DNA of 64,000 bases, from NCBI RefSeq assembly GCF_001625195.1, contig NC_054391.1, forward strand, positions 4,971,157-5,035,156. Reading direction: 5' to 3'. The translations under genes and the position numbers were made by a program. This DNA comes from Drechmeria coniospora (lineage: Eukaryota > Ascomycota > Sordariomycetes > Hypocreales > Ophiocordycipitaceae). This document shows, piece by piece, positions 27,682-58,200 of this stretch. The notes beneath the pieces were generated by a model that saw only the letters and a list, made by a program, of their open reading frames with translations, was not told the origin of the DNA and did no database searches. Each line of letters begins with the position of its first letter. Position 1 is the first letter of the stretch.

Positions 27682-30600
27682 GGTACCGCCTCGGATGGTT
27701 GGGCGTCGACGGGAGACGGTAGCGTTCGGTCTCGGCACGAAGGGCACATAGATGGGCCCCGTCCAGCGGCGGCGAGTTTGGTCGGGACGTGCGGACGACG
27801 AGAGGGAGGGACACGAATTCGCAGCCTCCGGTGCCCGTCCGTCGTTTCTCCTGTCGCTTTCCGCCAGTCGGTTTTCGTCGAGACGGGACGGAGGACGGCG
27901 GCGAGATGGGATAGGGAGCAGATAGGGGGCGGGTAGAGGATGATGGCGATTGGACACGGGGAGGTTCGATGCTGCGTTGGACGTGCGGGAGGATTTAATA
28001 CTCGAGGTGGATATTCGTCACGCCGGTCTTTGCTCGTCTCGCTTTCCTGGTGCCCGCTCGCACCTGCATGTCGGTAGAAAACTCCTGCCACGTCGATGAA
28101 GCAGGTAGGTACGTCGGCTCATGTACGGCACAAACGGTGCAGACGATCAATGGGATATGACGGTCCAGGATCAGCCCTTGGCCGCACGCATGGCGTATCG
28201 GTCGACACCTTGACTGGCAAGGTGAGCAGGGGCTCATGTGGGCAAGCTTGATAGTTCACGGTTGGCACAAACGGACTACACCTCTGCGCGTGAATATCCA
28301 CCCAACCCCCCCTTGCTTGGGCTTGGGCTGAGCGCTCGCCGCAATGCCCCGATCCTATCGTCGGTATGCGAAGGCCGGGACTCGAAGGGATCTCGTGGGA
28401 GCGAGTGCATAGCGAGGTACTTGGTGCAAGCGCAGTGGTACGGCATGGCCTCGTGTCACCGGTTAGCAACGGGCTCCGGCGTGGAATTACGTACACGGGC
28501 GGCCCTGTGATCGCCATCAGCTGCACCCGACGGCCGCTAACGGGGACCACTGTTGTGAGTTTGTGCCGGTCTTCCACAGATCGATCTACCAAGGCTGGAG
28601 CATCGCAACGAGATCGGCGGGGGAGGGGGACCGGCGGGAGGGGGGGGGGCGGGTCAGGTGGTCGTTGGTGGAAGGTTAATTGATCGGTTGAGCCATCGGA
28701 AACAGGTTCTCGTCGCCTCGCCGCCCCGAATTGCCGTTCGTTTTGGGAAGTTGGAGGGAGAAGCGAGAAGTCGGGCCCCTTGGCTCGATTCTACTTGGGG
28801 CTACTGCGACGAGAAGGACGGGCAATTCCATTCTCGGAACTCGGTACTGTCGTGAACAAGGAGTCGTGACAATCTCAAACTGGACAAGATTCGTGCACGG
28901 CGTGGAGAGTACAAGTAGGCAATACTGACCGACTGTCGTGTGTAGGAACGGGCGAGAGAGTAATACGTGTACGCGTACGTCACTGCACTATACAACAGGC
29001 AACAGCCTACCTACTTGTAGTAGGTACTAGGTCAGTACATTTCATAGCACTCGCACACCGACTTCTGCCGTAGGTGTACGTTTTCGGTACCAGGAGTTGA
29101 ACGGAGAAGCAGGAGGTGCGAAGGTACAAGTGCTGTACGGGTACCTCGAGACGGCGAACTACATGTATTGTCAAGTACTTGCGAGTTGCACTGTACTTAC
29201 AGTACGTGCTTGTGGAACTTGTGCCTTGGTACTCCGTACCCCGTACCTCCCCGTGCCTACAGCACAGCCAGTACTCAGAGGGCAACGCACAAGCCAAGTA
29301 TCAGGTACAGGTACTTGCTTGCATGCTCGTACTTACTGTGCTAGCATGCGTGCCTCGAGCGCGGCCTCGTGACGGTCGGGGGGACGGTGACTGTTAAGGG
29401 GACGGTGCCTTTTGTTTCACCATTGATCGAGCGACCTCGTTGCATTCTCGGAGATGCAGATGATGACGGTGACATGTACACGGACGTACCCAACCGCTGG
29501 CTTCCCCGATCGGTTCGCCATGAACTTCCGAAGCGAGCACTAGAGCAGTGAATCCGGCAAGCCGTCCTGTCAGGTCGCCGCGTTTGGCGGCGAGCAGCGC
29601 TAGCAGAATGCAGGCTCGGCTGCGTGTACTTGGATCCACGCCCAGAATGCGCGGCGGAGCAAGTACCGCACACACGTGCAGGCAAGGAAACATGCATCGG
29701 CGCGGGAGATGCTATGTTCATACGAGGTAATACGGAGTACTCCGTAGATCATTGGCACTCTGACACTTTGCATGTAAGTACCTGTACAGCATCAGTACCG
29801 AGCACACGTAGGTCCTCCGTACTCTGCTCCGTACTGTGCACTGCACTTGTATGCATGTGTCGGCAAGTCCTCCGTACCACCTGCGAATGCATGTATCAAG
29901 TACAGGAGGCATTCATATTTGGGTTGGTACAGTTGAATGTACAGATCGGTGCCTCTGCTGTGCGGTGCATTTACTGTACATGAGGTGCCTAGTACTACTA
30001 GGTACCTAGTAGGTGCAGTACAAGCATGTTTAGCACTATTAATACTTGCTCCGTACTTGTACACCATTCTCCATACTTGCATGCATGTATCGGTACGAGA
30101 GGCATTCATACGTGGGTTGGCACACTGGCATGTATCAGTACCTCCTCCGTACACTGCACTTGCTTGCCTGCCCGCATGCTTTAGCACGTCCTCCGTACGG
30201 AGTACACCATGCGGGCACGCATGTACCGGTACGAGATGGCTTCATACGCGGATTGGCACACTTGCATGTATCGGTACCTCCTCCGTACGGCGTGGTACCT
30301 GTGCAGCTTCGCTTGTCCGGCCCGCGCAGACAAGCAGTCGCTCCGCCAGTCCATGGTGCTGTCCGTAGATGGCAAGTGCGAGCGTGACCGAGCGAGACGG
30401 CGGAGCGGGCAACCACACGCGGGCGTGCCTGTACGGTTCGACGATGATCACGCCGCGTTCCAGCTGTTCCTGTGACATCGCCCCGCCACGACCGAGACCG
30501 ACCGACTGACCGACTCTCCTCCCTCCGAAGCGTGCACGAGAACGGCACCCGATGCTGGCTGTCCTGGAATGCGGGCAAGCAGGCAGCGGGAAGCGGTCGC

Positions 30601-30726
30601 GATATTCGTCGTCGTCAGTCGTGGCCGTGACGATGGAGGAGACAACACAACGGGAGGGGCATCTCGTGCTGTGCACGTCATCAGGTCCTCCACACAAACC
30701 TGGCTTCGTTTCTTTCGTCAACCAAG
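27682..30726. other. Intergenic accessory region, GTAC-rich, no supported gene
   Basis: Three kilobases without a supported gene. About 28900-30300 is a GTAC-rich stretch that includes diverged tandem repeats (listed separately at 29889-30290). Short plus- and minus-strand frames of up to about 205 codons exist before 28700 but have no motif and lie in the GNAT promoter or antisense to it. Confidence 0.6.
29889..30290. repeat. Diverged tandem repeat, about three units
   Basis: The words GCATGTAT(C)..GTAC, GGCATTCATA, GGGTTGGCACA and CATGTATC.GTACCTCCTCCGTAC recur in the same order from 29889, 30083 and 30219. Unit length varies (about 195 and 136 bp), with the first unit the most diverged. 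The units look like an expanded GTAC-rich block rather than a coding repeat. Confidence 0.65.
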
Positions 30727-31805
30727 CATTCAATCACACGGGGCGTGTGCTCACTGTTCGTGCTTGTTGCTCACGACGGTTGGACGGTTGGTCCAGAGGC
30801 GAGCATGATGATGGCTCGGGGCCGTCGTCGCATTGTCCTTGCGGTACGACATAACATCCTCTACAACCTTTGATCTGGCTTCTGCGGAAAAGCAGGCGGT
30901 CAATGACATTGGGCGTGCGCCAACCATAACTGATATCTCCCGCCCAGGTCGCTTACGACGATTGGATGGTCGGACCAGGGGCGAGTACCGTAATGCAGCG
31001 CTCTACGATCTTGGTGATCCGGCTCCCGTTGAAAGGCAGGTATTCAATGACATTGGACGTATGCTGACCATGACCGATTTTATCCGCCTGGCTCGCCCAC
31101 AACGATTGGATGGTCGGACCGGAGGCGAGAGTGCCTTAATAGATAACGCTCTACGACAAAGGTGATTAGGCTTCGGCAGCAAAGCAGGCATTCGACACTA
31201 CGTCGGTCTCGATCGCTTGCAACGGTTGGATATCCGTACGGCACCGGAGCCGAGTACTACAATGCGCGTCGCTCTCGCTACACCTTCTCCCCGTACGTTA
31301 CGGTAGCCTTTACGACAAACGAGCGACGAGGGTTGGACTCTGCGGCGCAGCAGGCATTCGATGACATTGTACGTAGACTAACTACTATATCCGCGTGGCT
31401 CGCTCGCGACCATTGGATGGATGGACCGAAGCCGAGTACCACGATGCATATGGCAGTCGTCGCATTTCCTCCCTGCAGGCAGGTCTTGGACCCCGCGCAC
31501 ACCCCGCAAAACCGATCGGGGGATATACACCCGAAAAAAATATACCCGAAAAAAAAGGTTATAAACGTTCCATAAAGTAAGTTACCCAAAGAAGAAGAAG
31601 ATGAAGAAGTTAGAAGAACACGGACTGCGGAGTCGATGTATGGGACTCGGACAAGCGTCCTTCATCATGCATACACCCACACGAGCATCCGATCAAAATC
31701 ATCAAAAATAAAAGGAAAGCGAATCGAAGTCAAAAGTACACGGCCTACAGCAAGCCAAGGCCGACGGCCAGGGCAGCGGCGAAGAGGGAACCCATAACGG
31801 CGCTG
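30727..31805. repeat. Duplicated flank A, copy 1 (less mutated)
   Basis: Homologous along its whole length to 33385-34444. Compare 30741-30760 (GGGCGTGTGCTCACTGTTCG) with 33398-33417 (GGGCGTATACTTACTGTTCG). Copy 1 is GC-richer; differences are mostly C or G here against T or A in the second copy. The right end runs into the last 61 nt of the GPI-anchored protein gene. Inside, degenerate units of about 120-180 bp repeat, each with CGACGRTTGGATGG, GGCGAGTAC, GCAGGCATTCAATGACATTG and TCCGCC.GGCTCGC-like blocks; in one frame these read RLDGRTRGEY and FNDIGRMLTMTDFIRLARP. No intact frame with an ATG was found. Confidence 0.85.
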
Positions 31806-32407
31806 GCACCGTCGACGGCGACGCCGGCCGCCGTCAAGGAGCTCGTACCGTTGGTCCGGACGCCCGAGCCCGACGGCAAAGCCGAGCCCGAGCTGCTCGC
31901 GCTGCCCGAGGTGGTGGCGCTGGCGGTGATGCTGGCGCTGGCGGTGGTGCTGGTGGTGATGCTGGCGGTGGTGCTGGCGCTCGTCGTCTCGCTCGACGAC
32001 GAGGTCGACGACGGCTGGGCCGACGACGACGACGGGGAGGCCGCCGCCGAGGCCGAGGACGCTGCCGCCGCCGAGGACGCCGCCTGCGCCGCCGAGGTCA
32101 CGCTCGCCTGCACGGTGTCCGGCTTGATGGACGCCGGGTCGATGAACTTAGGCTGGTACGACTCGCTACCTTTGTACTGAGGGCAACCGGGAACGGTGGT
32201 CTTGGGCGGAGCGCGGCCGCCGCCGCAGTCGAGGACCTCGCAGAGCTCGTACGTGTCGGGGACATACCAGACGCGCGAAGCGTACGCAGCCATGCCTGAG
32301 GGCTTCACGACGGTTTCGTAGTGAGTGCAGCCCGTGAGATCGGTGCGGCCGAGAACCGGGGAGGCGAGGAGGAGGAAGCCTCCGAAAGCGAGTGAGCGGA
32401 TGGACAT
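31745..32407 (-). CDS. GPI-anchored, Ser/Thr-rich secreted protein
   Basis: Intact 220-aa frame with ATG at 32407. Residues 1-20 (MSIRSLAFGGFLLLASPVLG) form a clear signal peptide. A short Cys-containing domain follows (GCTHYETVVKPSG, YELCEVLDCGGG, PGCPQYKG; four Cys), then about 90 residues of Ser/Thr/Ala low complexity suited to O-mannosylation. The C-terminus has a likely omega site (RTNGTS) and a hydrophobic tail (VMGSLFAAALAVGLGLL). This architecture is typical of fungal cell-wall or plasma-membrane GPI proteins; the exact role is unknown. The last 61 nt, encoding the GPI tail and stop, are also present in the second copy of flank A, where the rest of the gene is missing. Confidence 0.85.
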   Translation of the reverse strand: MSIRSLAFGGFLLLASPVLGRTDLTGCTHYETVVKPSGMAAYASRVWYVPDTYELCEVLDCGGGRAPPKTTVPGCPQYKGSESYQPKFIDPASIKPDTVQASVTSAAQAASSAAAASSASAAASPSSSSAQPSSTSSSSETTSASTTASITTSTTASASITASATTSGSASSSGSALPSGSGVRTNGTSSLTAAGVAVDGASAVMGSLFAAALAVGLGLL

Positions 32408-32846
32408 GGCGTTGGTTTTGTGTGGGAAAAAAGTGAATGAATGATACTGTCAGAGTATTGGTACCGCCGTCCGGTGGAATTGTTGCGCGAGTGATGGAAA
32501 AAGAATGTGGTTTGGCGACTGAAGGAAGGAAAGAGAACGTACTGACGAGGAGGCGAGAGAAGGTCGGTCGAGGCGAGGAGAGGCCGTATCGATACTTATA
32601 CGCCCGGCCCCCGACGACACATACGTGTTCGCACGCACGCCGCCGCCGCCGCCGCCCAGAGCTGCCCGCTGGCCGCGGCAGGCGAGCGTCGTCGGCCATC
32701 AGGATGCGTCGCCGCCACGGATCGTACCGCGTGTGCGGGCCACGAGGAGACGCACTGTGCGGTACCGCACGACACGGGCCGAGCACCACCAACGATGCCG
32801 TACCCGCTTGGCCGAAGCGCACGAGGGCACAGTGCCGAGCACGGCC

Positions 32847-33384
32847 GATCTACATGGCCAGGATCTGGAGGCGAGGAAGGGGACAGTGTCGGCCTCCTCG
32901 ACCCCGGATGTACTCGCACGTACCGGTACGTACCCGTTCGTACCCGGCCTCGTTTGTGACGGAAGGCACGGAAGGCACGGCCGATCTGCCGTTTCATCTA
33001 TCGAGCCGCTAGTCCCTCTTCGGAGATATCTGCACCCGCCGGCAGCTTGTGCATAGAGAGCTATGACGTTTATAAACTCTAATATTTACTACTCCGCTCC
33101 GTATAGCTATATACGGGGCGCTCCATACCGTAGTTGCCCACTAGTAGTATTTGGCCGAGCCCAGGTACGTACGAGTACGTCCATATACCTCCAACAACAC
33201 TGCGCACAGTACGGTAGGCCGTACGTACTAAGTCTCGAGCTCCTTTGTCGGGATCCCTCTACCGAGGCGTAGTACCTAAAGCCATTACGAGGCCCGCGAG
33301 GTGCGAGGCTCGGACGAAGGCTCAGCGAGACAACGACAACGACGACGGCGACGACGACGACGAAGACGAAGACGAAGACGAAGA
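32847..33384. repeat. Duplicated flank B, copy 1
   Basis: Homologous to 35845-36441. Shared blocks include ATGGCCAGGATCTGGAGGCG, GAAGGCACGGAAGGCACGGC, TATATACGGGGCGCTCCATA and CCTCTACCGAGGCG, in the same order and spacing. In one frame both copies read GQDLEARKGTVSASS..PDVLA, and copy 2 ends EGTEGTADLPFHLSSR. The right end is a GAC/GAAGAC trinucleotide tract that leads directly into the second copy of flank A at 33385. Substitutions relative to copy 2 go both ways, unlike the A pair. Confidence 0.85.
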
Positions 33385-34444
33385 CATTCAATTATACGGG
33401 GCGTATACTTACTGTTCGTGCCTGTTGCTTACGACGGTTGGACGGTTGGTCTAGAGGTAAGTATAATAATAGCTTGGGGCTGTTGTTGCATCTTCCTTAT
33501 GGTATAACATAATATCCTCTATAACCTTTAATCTGGCTTTTGCAGAAAAGCAGGCGGTTAATAATATTCGGCGTACGCTAACTATAACTGATATCTCCCG
33601 CCTAGGTCGCTTACGACAATTGGATGGCCAGACCAGGGGCAAGTACTATAATGTATACCCTCTATAATCTTAGTAATCCGGCTCTTGTGGAAAAGTAGGT
33701 ATTTAATAATATTGGATGTATGCTAACTATGGCCGATTTTATCCGCCTAGCTCGCCCTCGACGATCGGATAGTCGGACCGGAGGCGAGAGTACCTTAAAG
33801 GATAACGCTCTACGATAAAGGTAATTAGGCTTTGGCAGTAAAGTAGGCATTTGATACTATGTTGGTCTCGATCGCTTATAATGGTTGGATATCCGTCCGG
33901 TACCGGAGCTAAGTGCTACAATATATGTTGCTCTTGCTATACCTTCTCCCTGTACGTTACGGCAGCCTCTACGACGAATGAGCGATAAGGGTTGGACTCT
34001 ACGGTATAGTAAGCATTTAATAATATTGTATATAGACTAACTACTATATCCGTATAGCTTGCTTGCAACTATTAGATGGATGGACCGAAGCCGTATACTA
34101 TAATGCATATAGTAGTTATTATATTTCCTTCCTGCAGGTAGGTCTTGGACCTTGCGTACACCCCGCAAAACTAACCGGGGGATATATACCCGAAAAAAGG
34201 TTATAAACGTTCTATAAAGTAAGTTACCTAAAGAAGAAGAAGATAAAGAAGAAGTTAGAAGAATACGAACCGTAAAGTCGATATATAGGACTTGGATAAG
34301 AGTTTACACATATACCCATACGAGTATCCAATTAAAATTATCAAAAATAAAGGGACGCGAATTAAAGTTAAAAAGTATACGGCCTATAGCAAGCCAAGGC
34401 CGACGGCCAGGGCAGCGGCGAAGAGGGAACCGATAATAGTGCTG
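33385..34444. repeat. Duplicated flank A, copy 2, RIP-mutated
   Basis: Second copy of 30727-31805. Changes are dominated by C-to-T and G-to-A in TpG/CpA context: where copy 1 has GCTTGCAACGG (about 31215) this copy has GCTTATAATGG, and where copy 1 has ATGATGATGG this copy has ATAATAATAG. This is the classic RIP signature. The right end preserves the last 20 codons and stop (TAG at 34386-34384) of the GPI-anchored protein almost unmutated (GSLFAAALAVGLGLL) but no further gene sequence. Confidence 0.85.
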
Positions 34445-34561
34445 CAACCTCCCCTCGTTTGGGCTTCAGGCCAATGCTATGCATGACTGGATGTATTCCT
34501 CCAGTACGGTTGCCCGGGCTGGTACTAGACCCGGTACGCCAAGCCGGGCCGGAGAAGGTAA

Positions 34562-35167
34562 TTACAGACCCTGATAATCGCGGGGGTCGTGGTAACCTCC
34601 AGGTTGAAGAGTGCGCGTCTGGAAAGGCGCGCTGATAGAGACGACAGACTCGGGGTCATTATCCAAAGATATAACACCCGGCAGATATTCCTCAAGGCAG
34701 TTGCTATCGAGTCGGGCACTGAACATCCCGGCTGCGGCGTCCGCCTCTGTGAGGGTGAACTGTGGCCGCCGGAATGAGACGGCAGAGGAGTCGAGCTCAC
34801 ACCCGCTGACGACAGTCCTGTTTCCCGTAAGGTTCATCAAGATGGTCAGTAAGTCAGTTCGCTCCAAGCTATATAATTGACCAGTCCGCCGGGGCCCGTC
34901 TTCTATATAGAACCCCGTCGCGCCATAGGAACAACAAGGCCCAATGAGTAGAACAGGGAGCGAGGGCACGCTTAGGTGGTCAATCGCTAACATAATTGAC
35001 TCGGCAACCGCGTCAGGCATATTGCCCTGTAGGTACTTGAAGCAAAAGGGAGTCTCGTATTCACAGGGATTATACCGGTGGATAGTGACAGTGGCAGTAT
35101 ATGCAGTGCGGAATAGAAGTACTACCCAGCAGGTGTACAAACACTTAGTCTGAAATAATGATACCAT
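34562..35167 (-). CDS. Predicted secreted Cys-containing protein of unknown function
   Basis: Intact 201-aa frame with ATG at 35167. The N-terminus MVSLFQTKCLYTCWVVLLF then RTAYTA looks like a signal peptide. The mature part has six Cys (PCEYETPFC, GPCCSYG, SGCEL, SNCLEEY), an even number compatible with disulfides, and two N-glycosylation sequons in NLTGNRT. I recognise no family. It occupies the core of the second duplication unit, on the same strand and in the same relative place as the GPI-anchored gene in the first unit, but the two proteins share no visible similarity. The frame has not been broken by RIP although its left flank is heavily mutated. Candidate effector or surface protein; expression unproven. 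Confidence 0.55.
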   Translation of the reverse strand: MVSLFQTKCLYTCWVVLLFRTAYTATVTIHRYNPCEYETPFCFKYLQGNMPDAVAESIMLAIDHLSVPSLPVLLIGPCCSYGATGFYIEDGPRRTGQLYSLERTDLLTILMNLTGNRTVVSGCELDSSAVSFRRPQFTLTEADAAAGMFSARLDSNCLEEYLPGVISLDNDPESVVSISAPFQTRTLQPGGYHDPRDYQGL

Positions 35168-35844
35168 CTTGGACGAACGTCTGTTGAATGGTCAAATATC
35201 TAGGCTGCGTGCAATTACGCTGCTAGGTTGGAAGGCCGTGTGAGAGTTAGAAGGTTGAGTTGAGGTGAAAATAGACTAATGCAGGCCTTGCAAGCGTATC
35301 TTAGCAAAGACCCTTTATTTCAGTAGGTGGTATGGGTTACTTGGTTAGTAATTTTTTTGTTTTTGTTCTTGCAACTTGTATGCGCAAGAGGGGGTAGTGG
35401 AAGTATATCGCACGGACCAGGGAATTAATTACACTGTTAGTAACAGTAAAATGGGTGCTAACTTGGGATTGCTAAATTATACAAACGAAATGCGATTATT
35501 TCAATTGAGTAAACTATAGAATGAACGCAACTATATATAGACATATATTACCTACGTGTCCTGTCGGGACGTATCTGTTCCATCCATAATGCAATGGACA
35601 GGTCGTTTAATAAATAGTTTAAGGATAGACTTTGCTATTGCCTGTTTTGTCGTACTATAAGTCGGCTGGCTGGCTGTCTTACAGTTTGTACTCGAAATAC
35701 GGATACTGCTAACTAGCATAGTCTTACTAGTATAAATACTAGTATTTTTAACGCCTCCTCTATTTAGCTAGTATGACTACTGCTAAGTAGGATATTATCC
35801 TATTGTTGCTACTACTAGTAGTAACAATAGGGTTACTACTACTC
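35168..35844. other. AT-rich segment, possible decayed mobile element
   Basis: Strikingly AT-rich compared with the rest of the window, with no coding frame. It holds near-palindromic words around ACTAGTA (ACTAGTATAAATACTAGTA at about 35728 and CTACTACTAGTAGTAAC at about 35809). No terminal repeats or target-site duplication could be established by eye, so mobile origin is only a suggestion. Confidence 0.4.
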
Positions 35845-36441
35845 GATCTATATGGCCAGGATCTGGAGGCGAGGAAGGGGACAGTGTCGGCCTCTTCGAT
35901 CCCGGATGTACTTGCACGTACCCGCACGTACCCGGACTCGTTTGTAACGGAAGGCACGGAAGGCACGGCCGATCTGCCGTTTCATCTATCGAGCCGCTAG
36001 TCCCTCTTCGGAGATATCTGCACCCTAGGCAGCTTATGCATAAAGGGCCATAACGTTAATAAACTCTAATATTCGCTACTCCGCTCCGTATAGCTATATA
36101 CGGGGCGCTCCATACCGTAGTCGCCCACCAGTAGTATTTGGCCGAGCCCAGGTACGTACGAGTACGTCCATATACCTCCAACGACACTGTGCATAGTACG
36201 ATAGGCCGTACGTACTGAGCCTCAAGCTCCTTCGGCGGGATCCCTCTACCGAGGCGCAGTACCTAAAGCCATCACGAGGCCCGGGAGGTACGAGGCTCGG
36301 ACGAAGGCTCAGCGAGACGGCGACGACAACAAAGACAAAGACAACGACGACGAAGACAAATACAAAGACAACGACGACGACAAAGACAAAGACAAAGACA
36401 ACAACGACAACAACAACAAAGACGACAACTACGACGACGAC
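35845..36441. repeat. Duplicated flank B, copy 2
   Basis: Second copy of 32847-33384, starting GATCTATATGGCCAGG where copy 1 has GATCTACATGGCCAGG. It ends in an expanded GAC/AAAGAC/AACGAC trinucleotide tract (about 36315-36440) that abuts and slightly overlaps the Ser codons and stop of the DUF829 gene. Confidence 0.85.
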
Positions 36442-37310
36442 GCCGCCGTCGCGGCCGCCCACGACGTCCGAATGGCCGCCCAGTACTGCGTCGGATGCGT
36501 GCGCATGTGTCCGACATGGCCGCTACCTCGAAAGAGCTCCGTGTCGGCCTCCCACCCGTCCCGCCTCGCCTCGGCCGCGTGCCGCTCGATGTCGTCGGAG
36601 GCGATGAGGTCGTCGTCCTTGCTGTAGAGGTACAGCTTGCGGGCGCTCTTCGTCTCGTACCGCTCGTCGTTGGCCGCCCGCCTGCTCCACGAGCCGGCGC
36701 TCTCCCGGCCGACGATCCAGCCATAGGCGCTCGAGAGGCAGAGGACGAGGCCCCAGATGGCCTGCGTTACGGTAAAGGGCCAGGGGAAGGAAGCGGCGGT
36801 GCCGAGGGCCATGGCGCGCGACCAACGTCCGACGTTGGCCGCCGTCAGCTCGGTGCTGCCCGGCGTCGAGTCCATGACGAGCACCCGGTGCGGCAGCGGC
36901 TTGCCGTACCTCTCGCGGTAGGCGTGGAGCGTGGCGGCGTAGTTGACGGCGCCCGTGTTGGACATTGTGTGTACGAGGATCGAGTGCTCCTCGCTCTCGG
37001 CCCCGTCGAAGACGGCGTCGACGACGTCGGTCATGTGGCCCGAACGCTGCTGCAGGTCCGAGAACATGGCCTTGGCGATGGGCGAGAGCACGACGACCTG
37101 GCGCGCCGCCGGGTAGAGTTGCCGGTAGCCGTCGGCATACTTGGCCACGTGCTTGGGGAGACCGTCGCCCCAGCCGTAGATGATGACGGTGCCGGGATCC
37201 CCTGCCGACGCCGCGCCGTCGTCGGCCCGCGCCCGGGGCCGCAGGAACACCTGCTCCGAAAGGGCCGTAAAGCCGACGATGGCGGGTGCCTTTCTACCCA
37301 TGGCGGCCAT
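36429..37310 (-). CDS. DUF829/TMEM53-family alpha/beta-hydrolase-like protein
   Basis: Intact 293-aa frame, ATG at 37310 (a second ATG lies three codons in). The family (PF05705, TMEM53-like) has an alpha/beta-hydrolase fold of uncertain activity. Landmarks: VIIYGWGDGLPKHVAKYADG, YPAARQVVVLSP, the nucleophile-elbow region SILVHTMSNTGAVNYAATLH, HRVLVMDSTPGS, a hydrophobic segment (WPFTVTQAIWGLVLCLSSAY), RKLYLYSKDDDLIASDDIE and GSGHVGHMRTHPTQYW with the likely catalytic His. The C-terminal Ala/Ser run is encoded by a TCG tract that merges with the trinucleotide tail of flank B, so the last residues may vary between strains. A 16-bp minisatellite lies just upstream. Confidence 0.9.
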   Translation of the reverse strand: MAAMGRKAPAIVGFTALSEQVFLRPRARADDGAASAGDPGTVIIYGWGDGLPKHVAKYADGYRQLYPAARQVVVLSPIAKAMFSDLQQRSGHMTDVVDAVFDGAESEEHSILVHTMSNTGAVNYAATLHAYRERYGKPLPHRVLVMDSTPGSTELTAANVGRWSRAMALGTAASFPWPFTVTQAIWGLVLCLSSAYGWIVGRESAGSWSRRAANDERYETKSARKLYLYSKDDDLIASDDIERHAAEARRDGWEADTELFRGSGHVGHMRTHPTQYWAAIRTSWAAATAASSS

Positions 37311-37374
37311 ATTGTCCTTTGGTACGAATAGGCTCAGGGTGTATGTGTGTGTTTCGGAGTGTACTCAGGTGTAT

Positions 37375-37454
37375 GTGTACCGGTAGATGGGTGTACCGGC
37401 AGATGGGTGTACCGGCAGATGGGTGTACCGGTAGATGGTTTACCGGCAGGTAGG
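37375..37454. repeat. 16-bp minisatellite, five units
   Basis: Unit GTGTACCGGCAGATGG repeated at 37375, 37391, 37407, 37423 and 37439, with C/T variation in CGGCAG/CGGTAG and a diverged last unit. It lies about 65 bp upstream of the DUF829 start codon, in its promoter or leader. Confidence 0.9.
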
Positions 37455-38576
37455 TGTACAGACAAGTGTGTGTACAGGTATGTGGACGAGAAATGTGCAC
37501 AAGTATGAGTGCAAGGATGCGTCCTGTGCTATACAATACAAGTATGCGGACGGTAGAGCGTGCTGTGTGCGGTGTATGATCTCGAGTGCCCGTGGGTTGC
37601 TCCCGCGCCCGTCAAGGATGGGACGACAACGAAGGCGTAGTAAAGGTACGTCGAGTGGACGAATTTACTGTACATGTATAACCCACTCTCTCCGGCATAG
37701 GCAGCGTAACCAAACACATGGACGGGCACCCGCCAGCGCATGCACGTATTTATATGCTTGTCGGAACCGTGTCCCGTGACGACGGTGCCTGCTTCGACAC
37801 CTGTCCTGCCCTCGCTCCCTGCTTGTTGGGAAGGTGGCTTCAAACTTTGAACATGGCCGGCATTGACCAAGGGATGACTCGCGGCATCGAAATTGTCCCG
37901 ACCGAAGAACGACGGGCCAAGAGGGTTCGGCGCTGATGATGAGATATACGACGGAATCGGGGACATGAGCGGGAACGAATGCCGGTGCGGAATGTAGAGC
38001 GGGGCCGCTAGCAGAGATGCCGAGGCAGGAGTCGGGGCCGGAGAATTTCATCATGGCAGCAACCTAAAACTGTTGACGGCAATCTCTCCGATCCCAGCCA
38101 GCGCAAGGGCATCGCATTGATTGGATTGGGGACGCTTCGTAATGCTATTATCCGTGCCATGCTCTGTACTGTACTTGGCTGCACTTGTACCGTACAGTAC
38201 AGTGTGCTTGTACTTACAGCTACAAGCAAGCACACAAACTTGCACATGTACATGTACCTGCTCTTTCTCTGCACGTACTTGCTTATGGGAGTATAAGTAC
38301 ATGTAAGTGCTCCCCAACAATTCGGACTTTGGACGGCCAATTTCCAGCATACTCCGAATGCAAGTACTTAAGTACTTACGGAGTAATACTGTACGGGTTC
38401 ACGTTTCAGCCGAGAACGAGCCCTACGTAGTTTGCAACAGTCAGTTTCGCCAAAGGGCAACGTGCCATTGAGTCGGCCCCTACGGAGTAGTACACCTCGG
38501 CATCGGGCGTTGCATGACGTGAGGCCTGCCCGCAAGGTCTGTTGGTGGTGGTGGTATCTGCTGAGTACTTGCGTGT

Positions 38577-38874
38577 TACTGTGATAATTACTTTGTTATT
38601 GTGCTACTGTGATAATTACTGTGTTATTGTACTACTGTGATAATTAATGTGTGTTATTATGTTACTGTGATAATTACTGTGTTATTGTGTCACTGTGATA
38701 ATTAATGTGTGTTACTGTGTTACTGTGTTAACTGCTGTGTTACAGTGTTACAGTGTTACAGTGTTACAGTGTTACAGTGTTACTGTGTTACTGTGTTACT
38801 GTGTTACTGTGTTACTGTGTTACTGTGTTACTGTGTTACTGTGTTACTGTGTTACTGTGTTACTGTGTTACTGT
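38577..38874. repeat. Composite minisatellite, TGTTACTG/TGTTACAG octamer plus longer units
   Basis: The left part (to about 38720) alternates GTGATAATTA and GTGTTATTGTG blocks in units of roughly 30-40 bp. The right part is a pure octamer array: about five TGTTACAG units and then about fifteen TGTTACTG units. The octamer probably expanded from the longer unit by slippage. Confidence 0.9.
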
Positions 38875-41263: not shown

Positions 41264-43056
41264 GCTTAATATCCACACAGCCACCACGCCGCCGGAGCCC
41301 TGATCGCGATCGAGTCCCCTTCCCATCCGTCTTTTTCACCGCAACTTGTCCACGGCGAGCACCGTTTCCTCCATCGTCGGGCGGGCAGTAAAAGGCCCTG
41401 CGGAATGCAGAAAATTGGCAGCGCATGCTCCGCGCCGACGGACGGCGTCGATGCCGCGGAACGAAGCTGCTTCTCGTCCACCCACCTCGCCGCCGGCGCT
41501 CGCATGAATTTTTTGGACCAGCAGCACCAACAAAAGAGCCTCGGCGAGTAAGCACCGTGCGTTGGTTGCCTAATTCAAGGCACTTGCTAGTCCTCCGTCG
41601 TTTCCGCCATTCCGCGAGTACTTGCACGGTACTCCGCCCAGCACAGGCACATGTACAGCACGCGGAGCCGCACGTACAGGTACATGGCGGTGCAGGTACG
41701 GACGCTCACTGTTCAAAGTACCTGCGATCGTGGCGCCCCACGGAGTACTTGCACGCGAGCTGTCCCTGCACCCGCTCCAAGTACACAGTATTATACCTGC
41801 GCTGCACAGTACGACGTGATTACCATGGAACCGGCACGAAGGCACTCGAATCACTTGGTTTGCGGATCCTCAGTGGACTCCAGAACGTACAGTGATCCGT
41901 AGAACGAGTTCCTGGTACCAGCGTGCGCCTGCCGTACTGAATGAAGTACATCTTACTGTACTGTAAGTACTCTGTACATGTAAGTACACTTACTAATATT
42001 TGTACCTGTATGTACTTACAGTTCAGCGGGTGCCCGTGTACTGTAATTACTTACAGTACACCCGCATACTTGTACCAGTACGTAATACTACGGAATACGA
42101 TAAGAATTGGGCGAAGGGGTACGGAGTAAGTATAGGGGACAGAATAATATTAAAAAAAATTACACAAGAAAGCCAAGGCATCCGTGAGGACGAGTACCCA
42201 CGTAATGCCGCGCTGCCGTCGTGGCATTCGTTGTCACCTCCAAGCAATCGTACCTACGGAGTACAGACTGCTACAGTACGAGACTTGTAATTACGTCCTC
42301 GTCGCGTACGAATAGCAAGCTGAAACCTTGCAGTAAATACTTGGACGTACTTACTCCGTACAGGTGCACTCAACGCGGCAAATACAGTGCATTTGCGAAA
42401 CGTCGGACACAGTACCGCCCTGTCCACGTCTCACAATAGCGGGGGCACGGGGAGCGATTGGTCAGCTCGGGCGACACCATCAATGCTCGCTTGACCTGCG
42501 TAAATACGACCAGTACGAGATGAGCGTGGACCTGTGCTCGTATGCAGAAGGTAGATCCGAGCGAGGAGCCTGCCGCGGAGCCTCACTGCATGAGTTCATC
42601 CCTCGTCCGAGTTTGCGTTTGCATCGCCTCCGCAACTTGAGCCGCATTTCCGCGCTCAATCATGTGCAGTAGGTACTTGCATACGCACTGAGCGTTGCAC
42701 GTACTTGGGTAATTACTGTACTTACAGTACTTGTACTCCGTACTCCGTACTTGCTTGTACTTAGGTGTACTTGTACGGGGTACGGAGCACATGTACAGTA
42801 AGTTCTAGGTATGTAAGTACACAACTGGTCGTAAATACCTAGTACTTATACTTACAGTACTCCCTACAAGCAGACGACAAGTATTAATACTTATGATTCT
42901 TATCATCTGATTATACCTATCATCTGTCCCAAGTCTTCATGTCCATGTCGTACCGCATGCTTCACAACTACTTGCACAAGTTTACGGCACACAGCACACT
43001 CGTCCCTACCGTCCAGCCCCGTCCATCGTGCCGCCAGCCGCCCATGCCGCATTCAT
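41264..43056. other. Intergenic region upstream of the CPC1-type gene, GTAC-rich
   Basis: 1.8 kb without a supported gene. GTAC/CTCCGTA clusters occur at about 41600-42120, 42230-42370 and 42650-42960. The section 41264-41600 is the likely CPC1 promoter; the right edge is the 3' flank of the CCDC174 homologue. Confidence 0.55.
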
Positions 43057-47495: not shown

Positions 47496-48045
47496 TTTCG
47501 ACGTCGACAATTGAACAGCATTACGATCGATGACGGCGTCCTGCTAGGATATTGCAACAGGGTAGACGAAGCTGCATGCGAACACCGATGACATGACTTA
47601 TCCATCAGCGAGGTCCACTGTCGTTTTCTGTGTCTTGCTTTCGATGTCGACGCTTGAACAACACAACGATCGACGACAACGTCCTGCTAGAATATTGAAA
47701 CAAAGTAGACGAAGCTGCATGCAAATACCGATAACATAACTTATCCATCAGCGAGGTCCATAGTCGTTTTCTGCGTCTTGCTTTCGATTTCGACGCTTGA
47801 ACAACGCAATGATCGACGACAACGTCCTGCTAGCACATTGCAACCGGGTAGACGAAGCTGCATGAGAATACCGATGACTTGACTTATCCATCAGCGAGGA
47901 CCACTGTCGTTTTCTGTGTCTTGCTTTCGATGTCGACGTTTGAATAACGCAACGATCGCGACAACGTCCTGCTAGAATATTGCAACAAGGCAGACGAAGT
48001 TGTATGCGAATACCCCCGGTGCTATCTATCCATCAGCGAGACCCG
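47496..48045. repeat. 143-bp tandem repeat, nearly four units
   Basis: Unit starts, at TTTCGA.GTCGAC, lie at 47496, 47639, 47782 and 47925, exactly 143 bp apart. Shared words include CAACGTCCTGCTAG, GTAGACGAAGCTGCATG, CTTATCCATCAGCGAG and TCGTTTTCTG. Unit 2 carries several G-to-A changes relative to unit 1 (ACATGAC to ACATAAC, ATGCGAAC to ATGCAAAT), and unit 4 is truncated near 48045. No coding frame runs through the array. Confidence 0.92.
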
Positions 48046-54852: not shown

Positions 54853-55295
54853 ACAGCACAGCACAGCGCAGCGCAACTCAGCACAGCTCAGCGCAGCAAA
54901 GCACAGCATGGCACAGCACAGCACAGCACAGCAAAGCACAGCACAACAAAGCACAGCATGGCACAACAAAGCATAGCAAAGCACAGCAAAGCACAGCAAA
55001 GCACAGCAAAGCACAGCAAAGCACAGCAAAGCACAGCAAAGCACAGCAAAGCACAGCAAAGCACAGCAAAGCACAGCACAGCAAAGCAAAGCAAAGCACA
55101 GCAAGCACAGCACAGCACAGCACAGCAAAGCACAGCAAAGCACAGCAAAGCACAGCAAAGCACAGCAAAGTACAGCACGTCACGGCACGGCACAGCACTC
55201 CATAGCATGGCACAGTCCAGCACGGCACAGCACGGCACTGTCCAAGCACAGCACAGCACGGTACAGCACGGCACAGCACGGTACGGCGCAGCACA
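54853..55295. repeat. 5/10-bp minisatellite (CACAG / CACAGCAAAG)
   Basis: CACAGCAAAG decamers form the core (about 54960-55170); both edges dissolve into CACAG and CACGG pentamers (to about 55295). One strand is nearly free of T within the core. Long frames through it (poly-LCCA on minus, poly-STAQ on plus) are by-products of a repeat period without stop codons. Confidence 0.92.
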
Positions 55296-58200
55296 GTGCG
55301 CATCGTCCACGCCCGTGGTCCGCGAGCACACCAAGCTCCTCCGATCACGTCCTTTGCTCGCGGAACCCTCTGGACGGATGCCTACCTTGTTCGGAGCATC
55401 GAGCACATCCAAACATGCGACGCGGCCAATGACAACCTCGCGCGACTGCCAGGTCCCCGGACCCCGACACCCTTCCCCGGCGTGGGGGACGTCGAATCCC
55501 TGCTCGTCACCCTTCCACGCCCCTCCCCCCTGCGGATGGCCTCGCAAACCCCTCTCAGCCCTATCGACAAACCGACAGCGTCCATCCCTGCGACGTGCTG
55601 CTGGCGGCGAGCGCACCTGCTTGCACCGTGCTGCTCTGCATCTTCCGTCTCGATCCGTCCCCGTCACGCAAGCGGCATGGCCATCTGCGCTGCTTACTCC
55701 GAGCATCCCGCCTCGTCCCCTCTTGGCCCAGCCACGGACTCGCAGGTGATTCCCGCTCCACTCGCGCACCCATCTGCCGGCCCTGCGTGACTTGCCGTCG
55801 GCGACGCCGAGGGACCACGAAACGCAGCACGTCGGTTGTGCTCTGCAGCCTATTCGTGATGCCACGGGCACGACCGAATGAAGCTGCTCGTAAGGGCCGA
55901 CGCACGCTCGATGCGACGCTGCCTCGACCACCGAGGACCCTGCCTCGACACGGCTCCTGCATGCACACGCTCCGTGCCTGTCCTTGGACCGCATTGACCA
56001 CGACGAGCGGCTTCTCGACATTGCCACCAACCGCTCCAAGGTATCCAAGGCATCCAGCCGGCGTCTTGGTGGCCGGGACGCGAAGCTTGAGCCAGCGGCC
56101 CCCCCTCCCCCGCCCGGATGGGCGTTTGGCAGCATGCACGGGCCGTGGGGGGAGACGACGGCACCACGCTCGACACACCACGCTCGACACACCACGCCGT
56201 CTGTGCGACCTCCCGTCACTCGACTGCGGGAATTGAAGCTCGCCGGAGTGGCGGGACGGAGGAGGGCATGGTCATGATTGGAGCGAGCCCGAGGGAAGGG
56301 GGTGCCTCGTCGACCATTGCTCGGCGACGAGCGACGAGGAATCCGCTCCGATGCCGCTTGGCCTCGACGGCCTGGGCGAGATGCAACCATTGATTGGATG
56401 CCACCTCGTGCCGCCGACGTTTCGACGTCCCTCGAGCGGGAAGCCGTCGCCATGGCCACACCTGGGCGGTGCCAATCCACCCACGCGCGCCAACGGCCAA
56501 CGTCAGGTCGAGGCACGTTGGACACGAGGACGAGCACAGCCGGTTGATGGGCGATGGGCGATGGGCGACGGGCGAAATGCTGGCCGGTGTTGGGCCGACG
56601 CGCCACGCCACGGCGTCGGTGGCACCCTACAATCGGCCTCGCCAGGCACGCCGACCCGCCCAAGCACGTACTTAGGTCCAGGGCCGTTCACCCCCAAGAA
56701 GGCCAAGCTCCAGCGCGCGGGGGACCCCCGCAGTCACTAGCACCGACGCGGGCGTAGCGGCGCTGAGCATCTTGGAGTCGTGAGAACCTTATTCTTCCCC
56801 CCCGAGACTCGTCGCGGCCGCCGACCTCGAGGCTGACGGGAGACGGAGCACCGGCGTGGCGGGCGTCGTCCATCGGTCCTGGATGGCCCATTCCCAGCGA
56901 CCCGCCTCCGACAAGGCCAGAGGGAGAGGCCGCCGAGCACTCGCAGGGCGGCCAGGGCCTGCGCGGCACCCACGCCGGACGTGGAGCTGGCCACCGCCGA
57001 TGGGCGTGGGGAGGGGGAGAATCGCGAGGGAGGGGCCGAGGAGGGGCGTCGTCCAACCTCCGTCATCGGTGTCGACCCCACGTCCGAAAGTCCGAGCCAT
57101 CGTCCTCGCTCGGCGACGGCATTCCGGGCAACGAGCGACGAGCAAGGTGAGCGGTGGGCTGGCTCGGAAACGCAGTCGATCCTCCGTTCCGTGGCGAGTC
57201 TTTGAGACGGTCGTCCGAAGGGCTTGTCGAATCGCCGAGGGGCTCATTGCACTCGAGCTCCTACGGTCAAGGGTCGAGGCGGGGAGCCGCCGATGGAGAT
57301 GGCGCGACGGACCACAGAACGCTCCTGCCTGCCGCGCGGGAGGGCAGGTGGGGCGGGGGCCAGGCACGGCGGGGGCAGGCACGGCGGGGCGAGCACGGGC
57401 TGGCTCAACCAACCGCCCCATGGGCGCAGACCCTATTGGTGGGCGCCGGCAACAAGTCCGTCCGAACCTCCCTCCCAGGGTGCAGGAGCCAAGGGCACCC
57501 ATGCCCGCCGGCGCGAGCAGGAGCACCGGCGGCGAGTGCCTGCGCATTTCCCACCACGAGCACGAGCGCGCGCTCCGTACTGGCTGCTCGCCACGGGCAC
57601 TGCTCTTGCACTGGGGCGCACTGTAATTCCCTGTATCTGCACGCCATCGCACCGTGTCGCACGTGTACCTGGCACTCACCAGCACGGCATCACACATGCA
57701 CCCGCAGCTATTGTGCATGTTTCTGCGCGGTGTTGTACTTGCGTGCACCTGCAGACCTTGACAAACCTTTACATGTGCCTACAGTAAGTACAGCAACACT
57801 GGCAGGGTGCTGCCGTAGGTACCCTGCGTTCGAGTTGGCCTGGCGACTCTTTGCCGTCGCCTGCTGCCGCTCCTCCCCTTCCAGGCATGGTGGAATGGCA
57901 GACTGCTGCAAGCATGCCTTTCACGGCGTGTGCCGATTCTTGCACGTGTACGGAGCATGTCGCCCATGCATGCGCGTGAGAGAGATGGGCTTTCGTGTGG
58001 CAATGCAGGCGTTTCTCATCTCCATGGCCGCATTTTTGCTTGGATATTCCAGCTGCCGGTGAAAAGATGGTCTTGCCGCACAAACTCCTACCGCTGCGGT
58101 ATCTGGCGCCGATGCCGGTACCAGCCAACGCCGAAATGCATGTGCTCCCCGTAGTAGTTAGTCACGAGTACCTCCAGCAGCACATATATGTACATGGACA

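Follow-up and report, generated by a model that had tools for sequence, protein, structure and literature searches.

What history leaves two neighbouring units with the same flanks and unrelated genes between them? The question is raised by positions 30727 to 36441 of a 64,000-nucleotide stretch of Drechmeria coniospora DNA (assembly GCF_001625195.1, contig NC_054391.1, positions 4,971,157 to 5,035,156 of the forward strand). This whole stretch is called the window, and all positions below refer to it; its source is probably a nematode-killing fungus. Two tandem units are present, each made of a flank A, a core and a flank B. Unit 1 contains a gene for a cell-wall-type protein with a putative glycosylphosphatidylinositol (GPI) anchor, and unit 2 contains an unrelated open reading frame of 201 amino acids (aa). 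The tandem duplication is real. Repeat-induced point mutation (RIP) is a fungal defence that mutates duplicated DNA, and the history that we consider probable is a duplication, RIP on one copy and a rearrangement that replaced the redundant gene.

Layout and copy number of the two units

The A and B blocks of units 1 and 2 were compared by BLASTN (coordinates in Table 1). The two copies of flank A, A1 and A2, are 81.2% identical over 1084 alignment columns, and the two copies of flank B, B1 and B2, are 89.4% identical over 537 columns, both with an expectation value (E) of 0. In the same comparison of unit 1 with unit 2, no DNA similarity was found between core 1 (31806-32845) and core 2 (34445-35843). 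The frames of both cores lie on the minus strand. B1 is joined directly to A2 at about 33384/33385, where a reading of the sequence places a GAC/GAA trinucleotide tract at the end of B1. This arrangement had been described in the original prediction, and its conserved flanks, unrelated cores, common strand and direct junction at a trinucleotide tract are all borne out. The extent given there for unit 2, 33385-36441, is right in its anatomy and too long at its end, since the alignable part of B2 stops at about 36375, within a GAC/GAA-like tract that continues to a DUF829 gene (36429-37310, minus strand). The GAC/AAC-rich tract that ends B2 covers 36316-36442 and reaches slightly beyond the DUF829 stop at 36429; the break of the duplication thus adjoins a coding end. 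Core 2 as a diverged form of core 1 was also considered and found no support, as BLASTP of the 220-aa protein against the 201-aa protein gave a best E of only 3.9 and core 1, when compared with 34445-35354 in six frames, gave a single match at E 0.99.

The gene of unit 1 is intact, and by similarity its product belongs to a widespread and conserved family of surface or cell-wall proteins. Among 7989 candidates scored, 285 proteins match it at E<=0.01. The best 120 listed include entries named cell wall protein, CwpA and 'siderophore biosynthesis enzyme', and they come from Trichoderma, Cordyceps, Tolypocladium, Metarhizium and others. Homologues under these names occur in the Hypocreales. A signal peptide, a Ser/Thr-rich middle part and a hydrophobic tail can be recognized by eye, and GPI anchoring is putative. 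The end of this gene is also found in unit 2, where the end of A2 keeps the last 19 codons and the stop with the frame open (STIIGSLFAAALAVGLGLL-stop, vs SAVMGSLFAAALAVGLGLL-stop in unit 1). The 20 codons that had been counted there are correct with the stop included. Because this remnant is present in A2, at its junction with core 2, unit 2 formerly carried the GPI-type gene and then lost most of it, as had been proposed.

One assembly was searched for further copies (32.83 Mb, 28 contigs). Queries of 674 bp for flank A and 540 bp for flank B have exactly two matches each in this genome, all of them in the window, and the second copies are found at E 1.7e-197 and 4.1e-205, respectively. A single place in the genome was found for the GPI-type protein, and likewise for the 201-aa frame. 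The original prediction had interpreted the locus as a cassette system with kept flanks and exchangeable cargo, for which a genome search would return many A-B pairs; only the tandem pair of the window was found. Two matches per flank do not make up a series of A-B pairs, which removes the main prediction of the cassette idea, and on copy number such a system was rejected for the one genome searched. A cassette or idiomorph locus, with A and B kept as recombination targets and secreted cargo swapped between them, would agree with the two unrelated secreted-type frames, located on the same strand and at a similar position between A and B. Mating-type idiomorphs and antigen cassettes are likewise built of unrelated cores between similar flanks. 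However, the flanks occur here only in this tandem pair and no allelic exchange is shown, one A copy is heavily mutated in the manner of RIP, which argues against flank A as a kept flank, and core 2 contains transposon debris. We consider this interpretation very improbable.

Mutation pattern of flank A

The differences between the two A copies are highly one-sided. Over 1064 aligned pairs, including a few beyond the end of homology, A2 shows 92 C>T and 57 G>A changes relative to A1 (149 together), vs only 9 and 6 (15) in the reverse sense, and there are 15 transversions. The changed A2 sites amount to 74 of 132 in CpA context and 65 of 204 in CpG context, with 4 of 109 in CpT and 5 of 147 in CpC. 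CpA and CpG thus hold 139 of the 148 A2 changes with a readable neighbour, where the background proportion is 336 of 592 (binomial p ~6e-24). No such excess exists for the 15 reverse changes, assigned to A1, of which 7 lie at CpA or CpG.

The composition of the two copies was also compared. The TpA/ApT ratio is 1.37 in A2 and 0.75 in both A1 and the window, the (CpA+TpG)/(ApC+GpT) ratio is 0.66 in A2 and 1.00 in A1, and the GC content of A2 is 0.42. Passages of PMC4792172 describe an active RIP system in D. coniospora, with an index threshold of 0.89 in 2-kb windows, and passages of PMC7882544 place the species in RIP class 4, with cut-offs of above 1.15 and up to 0.75. A2 passes the cut-offs found in these passages and A1 fails them. 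Direction, context and composition together indicate that the agent of the one-sided change was RIP of A2. The likeness to RIP in the Pezizomycotina, reported for D. coniospora in the passages just cited, consists of a directional C-to-T change at CpA (here also at CpG), a lowered GC content and a raised TpA/ApT ratio in duplicated sequence. The locus differs in that one A copy is heavily hit and the other apparently untouched, and in that the changes at CpG (65) nearly match those at CpA (74).

Within A2, the retained tail of the GPI-type gene shows changes at 4 of 19 RIP-sensitive sites, vs 134 of 304 in noncoding A; as a sign of selection on the tail, this is not significant (Fisher p 0.057). 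The tail also contains the whole of the longest unmutated run of RIP-sensitive sites in A (13 sites), which is not significant either (permutation p 0.093).

Flank A has an internal structure of its own, consisting of repeats at an offset of about 142 bp (71-72% identity) in both copies, at 30859-31193 and 33512-33860. A tandem array of like period is located at 47496-48014 (143-bp unit, 3.6 copies, 86% matches), and its comparison with 30000-37500 listed no similarity, despite that period. Two more arrays were seen in the window, a degenerate 5-bp array (ACAGC, ~89 copies, score 459) at 54853-55296 and an array of an 8-bp unit (TGTGTTAC, ~20 copies, 93%) at 38573-38874.

Replacement DNA in the second unit

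Relative to unit 1, unit 2 is without about 1040 bp and carries 1399 bp instead. The unmatched part of this core 2 measures about 0.92 kb: for 34445-35354 (query positions 1-910), no other genome match was listed when 40 of 342 candidates were scored. The transposon debris at 35367-35843 makes up 477 of the 1399 bases, about one third of the core. In the same search its segments 35367-35458 and 35719-35843 match many places, with at least 101 matches listed.

Twenty stretches with repeat places were taken from the genome, and 14 copies were aligned with core 2. The resulting 15-row alignment reveals a repeat family with sharp shared ends. When one full long terminal repeat (LTR) was used as a query, at least 84 matches were listed (40 of 457 candidates scored), showing a dispersed family. 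In the 20 fetched loci, exact 5-bp target duplications are found in 8 of 28 LTR start-end pairs defined by motif, several pairs sharing one end, and 4 of the 28 pairs are followed by a common internal sequence. The copia LTR copies L026, L033 and L034 adjoin the common internal end CCCCCTCTAT; the remaining pairs are flanked differently. One of the three frames tested beside LTR copies, next to L026, contains an RVT_2 domain (E 7.9e-34); for the two others, including that of L034, no Pfam match was obtained. The L034 frame stops about 20 bp ahead of the polypurine tract AGAGGGGG and the LTR start TGTTAAAA.

The sharp ends, the 5-bp duplications at some copies, the RVT_2 frame beside one copy and the order of tract and LTR identify the family, at the level of sequence features, as a Ty1/copia-type LTR retrotransposon, present in core 2 as a decayed and truncated element on the minus strand. 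As in Ty1/copia elements, the LTR starts with TGTTAAAA on the element strand and is accompanied by a polypurine tract (AGAGGAGG, 35754-35761), and the relatives provide RVT_2 and some 5-bp duplications. The core 2 copy differs by being truncated, by its altered end CG for TG, by the fact that no second LTR is seen and by the other LTR end, which is GA here and is usually CA. The LTR-like piece of 43 bp next to B2 has the opposite orientation and lies at the polypurine-tract side. The 20 fetched LTR loci have a GC content of 0.32-0.49 and a TpA/ApT ratio of 1.13-2.01.

The repeated parts of core 2 are located upstream of the 201-aa frame, and a shared promoter of an effector family was considered as an explanation for them. 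It was rejected in view of the LTR-like ends, the 5-bp duplications at some copies and the copia coding sequence beside one copy. A scan of the 20 loci for open reading frames (>=110 aa, crude hydrophobicity score) gave no such frame in 7 of them and various frames in the rest.

Core 2 might also be a single transposon insertion, of copia or of a cargo-carrying element, that brought in the 201-aa gene in one step. The copia LTR and polypurine tract fit this idea, as does the frame itself, which follows closely downstream of the LTR with the same orientation, its ATG being 199 bp from the LTR edge. However, about 1040 bp of the target are gone, the right end stops within LTR-like sequence, and no LTR match among those listed lies to the left of the frame. 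By reading, the two ends of core 2 (34445 and 35843) have no mutual match and no target-site duplication; core 2 is therefore not a clean transposon insertion, and its arrival in one step is unlikely. In the original prediction, a core that proved to be an inserted transposon, recognizable by its terminal repeats and a target-site duplication, would have spoken against the cassette idea; of these signs an LTR is present, but no matching ends or duplication bound the core. As no such termini frame the new DNA, end-joining repair is favoured, or a series of several steps (copia insertion, deletion, and capture of a piece from elsewhere).

Table 1. Features of the two tandem units (window coordinates).
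Feature	Position	Strand	Remark
Flank A, copy 1 (A1): 3' flank of the GPI-type gene and its last 20 codons (stop included)	30727-31805	+	No sign of RIP
GPI-type cell-wall protein gene, intact, 220 aa	31745-32407	-	Single genome place; relatives across Ascomycota
Flank B, copy 1 (B1), with GAC/GAA trinucleotide tract at its end	32846-33384	+	Joined to A2
Flank A, copy 2 (A2), mutated in the manner of RIP	33385-34444	+	GC 0.42; TpA/ApT 1.37; 149 C>T/G>A vs 15 reverse changes
Remnant of the GPI-type gene: last 19 codons and stop	34384-34443	-	Frame open
Replacement DNA	34445-35366		No other genome match among those listed
201-aa frame, signal-peptide-like start (by eye), eight cysteines	34562-35167	-	No Pfam family or homologue at E<=1; single genome place
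Ty1/copia-type LTR, decayed and internally deleted	35367-35753	-	Dispersed family
Polypurine tract of that element, with a short internal end	35754-35800	-
Short inverted LTR-like fragment	35801-35843		Abuts B2
Flank B, copy 2 (B2)	35844-36375	+	Tract at its end runs on to the DUF829 gene (36429-37310, -)

Proposed order of events and the 201-aa frame

The proposed history begins with a tandem duplication of about 2.65 kb, comprising A, the GPI-type cell-wall gene and B, with the break in a trinucleotide tract. RIP would then have hit A2 heavily and left A1 clean. A rearrangement, before or after RIP, would have removed about 1040 bp of unit 2, from just before the last codons through the upstream region of the gene, and put about 1.4 kb in its place, consisting of a stretch for which no other genome match was listed, with a possible orphan secreted-protein gene, and of the truncated copia LTR. 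The sequence itself establishes the duplication, the one-sided pattern of A, the replacement and the LTR; RIP as the agent, the sequence of events, end-joining and expression of the 201-aa frame as a gene are inferred.

Several observations weigh against this history. RIP normally marks both copies, as is usual in Neurospora, although A1 looks clean. One guess is that recombination with an unduplicated homologue in the same cross could have restored unit 1. RIP requires a sexual cycle. Passages of PMC4859500 state that no sexual stage is known and that there is no MAT-alpha domain, and those of PMC4792172 mention an orthologue of MAT1-1-1 and propose that a cryptic cycle may exist. In flank B, the differences between the copies are two-sided (23 vs 14 transitions and 12 transversions in 536 pairs), 28 of the 37 transitions lie at CpA or CpG when both sides are pooled (p 0.005), and both copies are beyond the RIP index cut-offs (1.83/0.49 in B1 and 1.45/0.62 in B2, at GC contents of 0.57 and 0.55).

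These RIP-like indices of B are explained in part by GTAC motifs: once the motifs are masked, B1 still passes (1.30/0.68) and B2 falls back (1.07/0.88). Because indices and contexts are RIP-like in both copies, light RIP may have affected both of them, or B may have undergone RIP before the duplication; its own composition may also be responsible. Across the 64 kb, 68 of 1058 windows of 540 bp (step 60) pass both cut-offs, and most of them start at 32581-34141 and 35341-36241, which covers B1 and the sequence upstream of it, A2, the LTR and B2. Further passing windows occur at 541-1380, 28561-29460 and 41581-42540, and a comparison of these regions with 30000-37500 listed no similarity.

Two remaining points of this kind concern the 201-aa frame. 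The protein database holds the GPI-type protein of the same contig and nothing like the 201-aa frame. Among 145 candidates from a collection of 5.8 billion proteins, searchable at 0.55-1.75 times its length, no protein was found at E<=1, and no Pfam family was found at E<=1. The codon score of the frame is -0.11, vs 0.09 to 0.43 for seven training frames and 0.30 for the GPI-type gene, and is the lowest of the nine frames scored, the eight others including all seven training frames. In addition, its GC content at third codon positions (GC3) is 0.58, vs 0.68 to 0.91 in the training frames. All of this would be in keeping with a frame that is not a gene and a core 2 of filler and transposon debris with a chance frame. 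We regard this as a possibility of some weight, though a doubtful one, since other properties speak against it. None of 1000 sequences from a first-order Markov simulation contained an ATG frame of at least 201 aa (the longest reached 190 aa). The codon score, though low, is the highest among the six frames of its stretch and lies 2.6 standard deviations above mononucleotide shuffles. The order GC3 > GC1 > GC2 is that of six of the seven training frames, with one tie at two decimals.

The predicted 201-aa protein has eight cysteines and, by eye, a signal-peptide-like N-terminus. The ATG is preceded by a pyrimidine-rich stretch, which we take to resemble an ordinary fungal 5' region. A structure model from the single sequence was uninformative, with a mean predicted local distance difference test score of 33.3. 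An orphan secreted-protein gene that would be expressed is a likely but unproven identity for the frame.

The retained GPI-type tail could in principle have become the final exon of the new gene. An intron at the end of the 201-aa frame would then link a new ectodomain to the old membrane-anchor tail, and the head of an anchored protein, about 219 aa long, would have been exchanged. A splice from 34565 to 34442, for example, would give 219 aa. A scan yielded 576 GT-AG pairs 45-400 nt apart, 26 of which keep the frame. A GTRNG donor is present in four of these 26, whose products would be only 140-148 aa long, and in none of the six in-frame pairs whose donor falls within the last 20 codons. No CTRAY branch motif is present below 34800. 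With poor donors near the end of the frame and no consensus branch site, the fusion lacks good splice sites, and we consider such a product very unlikely.

In Leptosphaeria maculans, effector genes lie beside RIP-affected transposons. The D. coniospora locus is similar in that an orphan secreted-type frame adjoins transposon debris and DNA mutated in the manner of RIP, and differs in being one locus, with a frame whose expression and function are putative. The passages of PMC7882544 include citations on RIP 'leak'.

The locus as a whole looks like ordinary fungal genome turnover, achieved by a mostly ordinary mechanism. It would provide a compact example of how a genome with RIP handles a tandem duplicate, with one gene copy left clean and the other scarred and replaced. 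A lineage-specific secreted protein may have been placed beside transposon debris in the process. The strong one-sidedness in A, absent in B, represents a small puzzle on how RIP chooses its targets.

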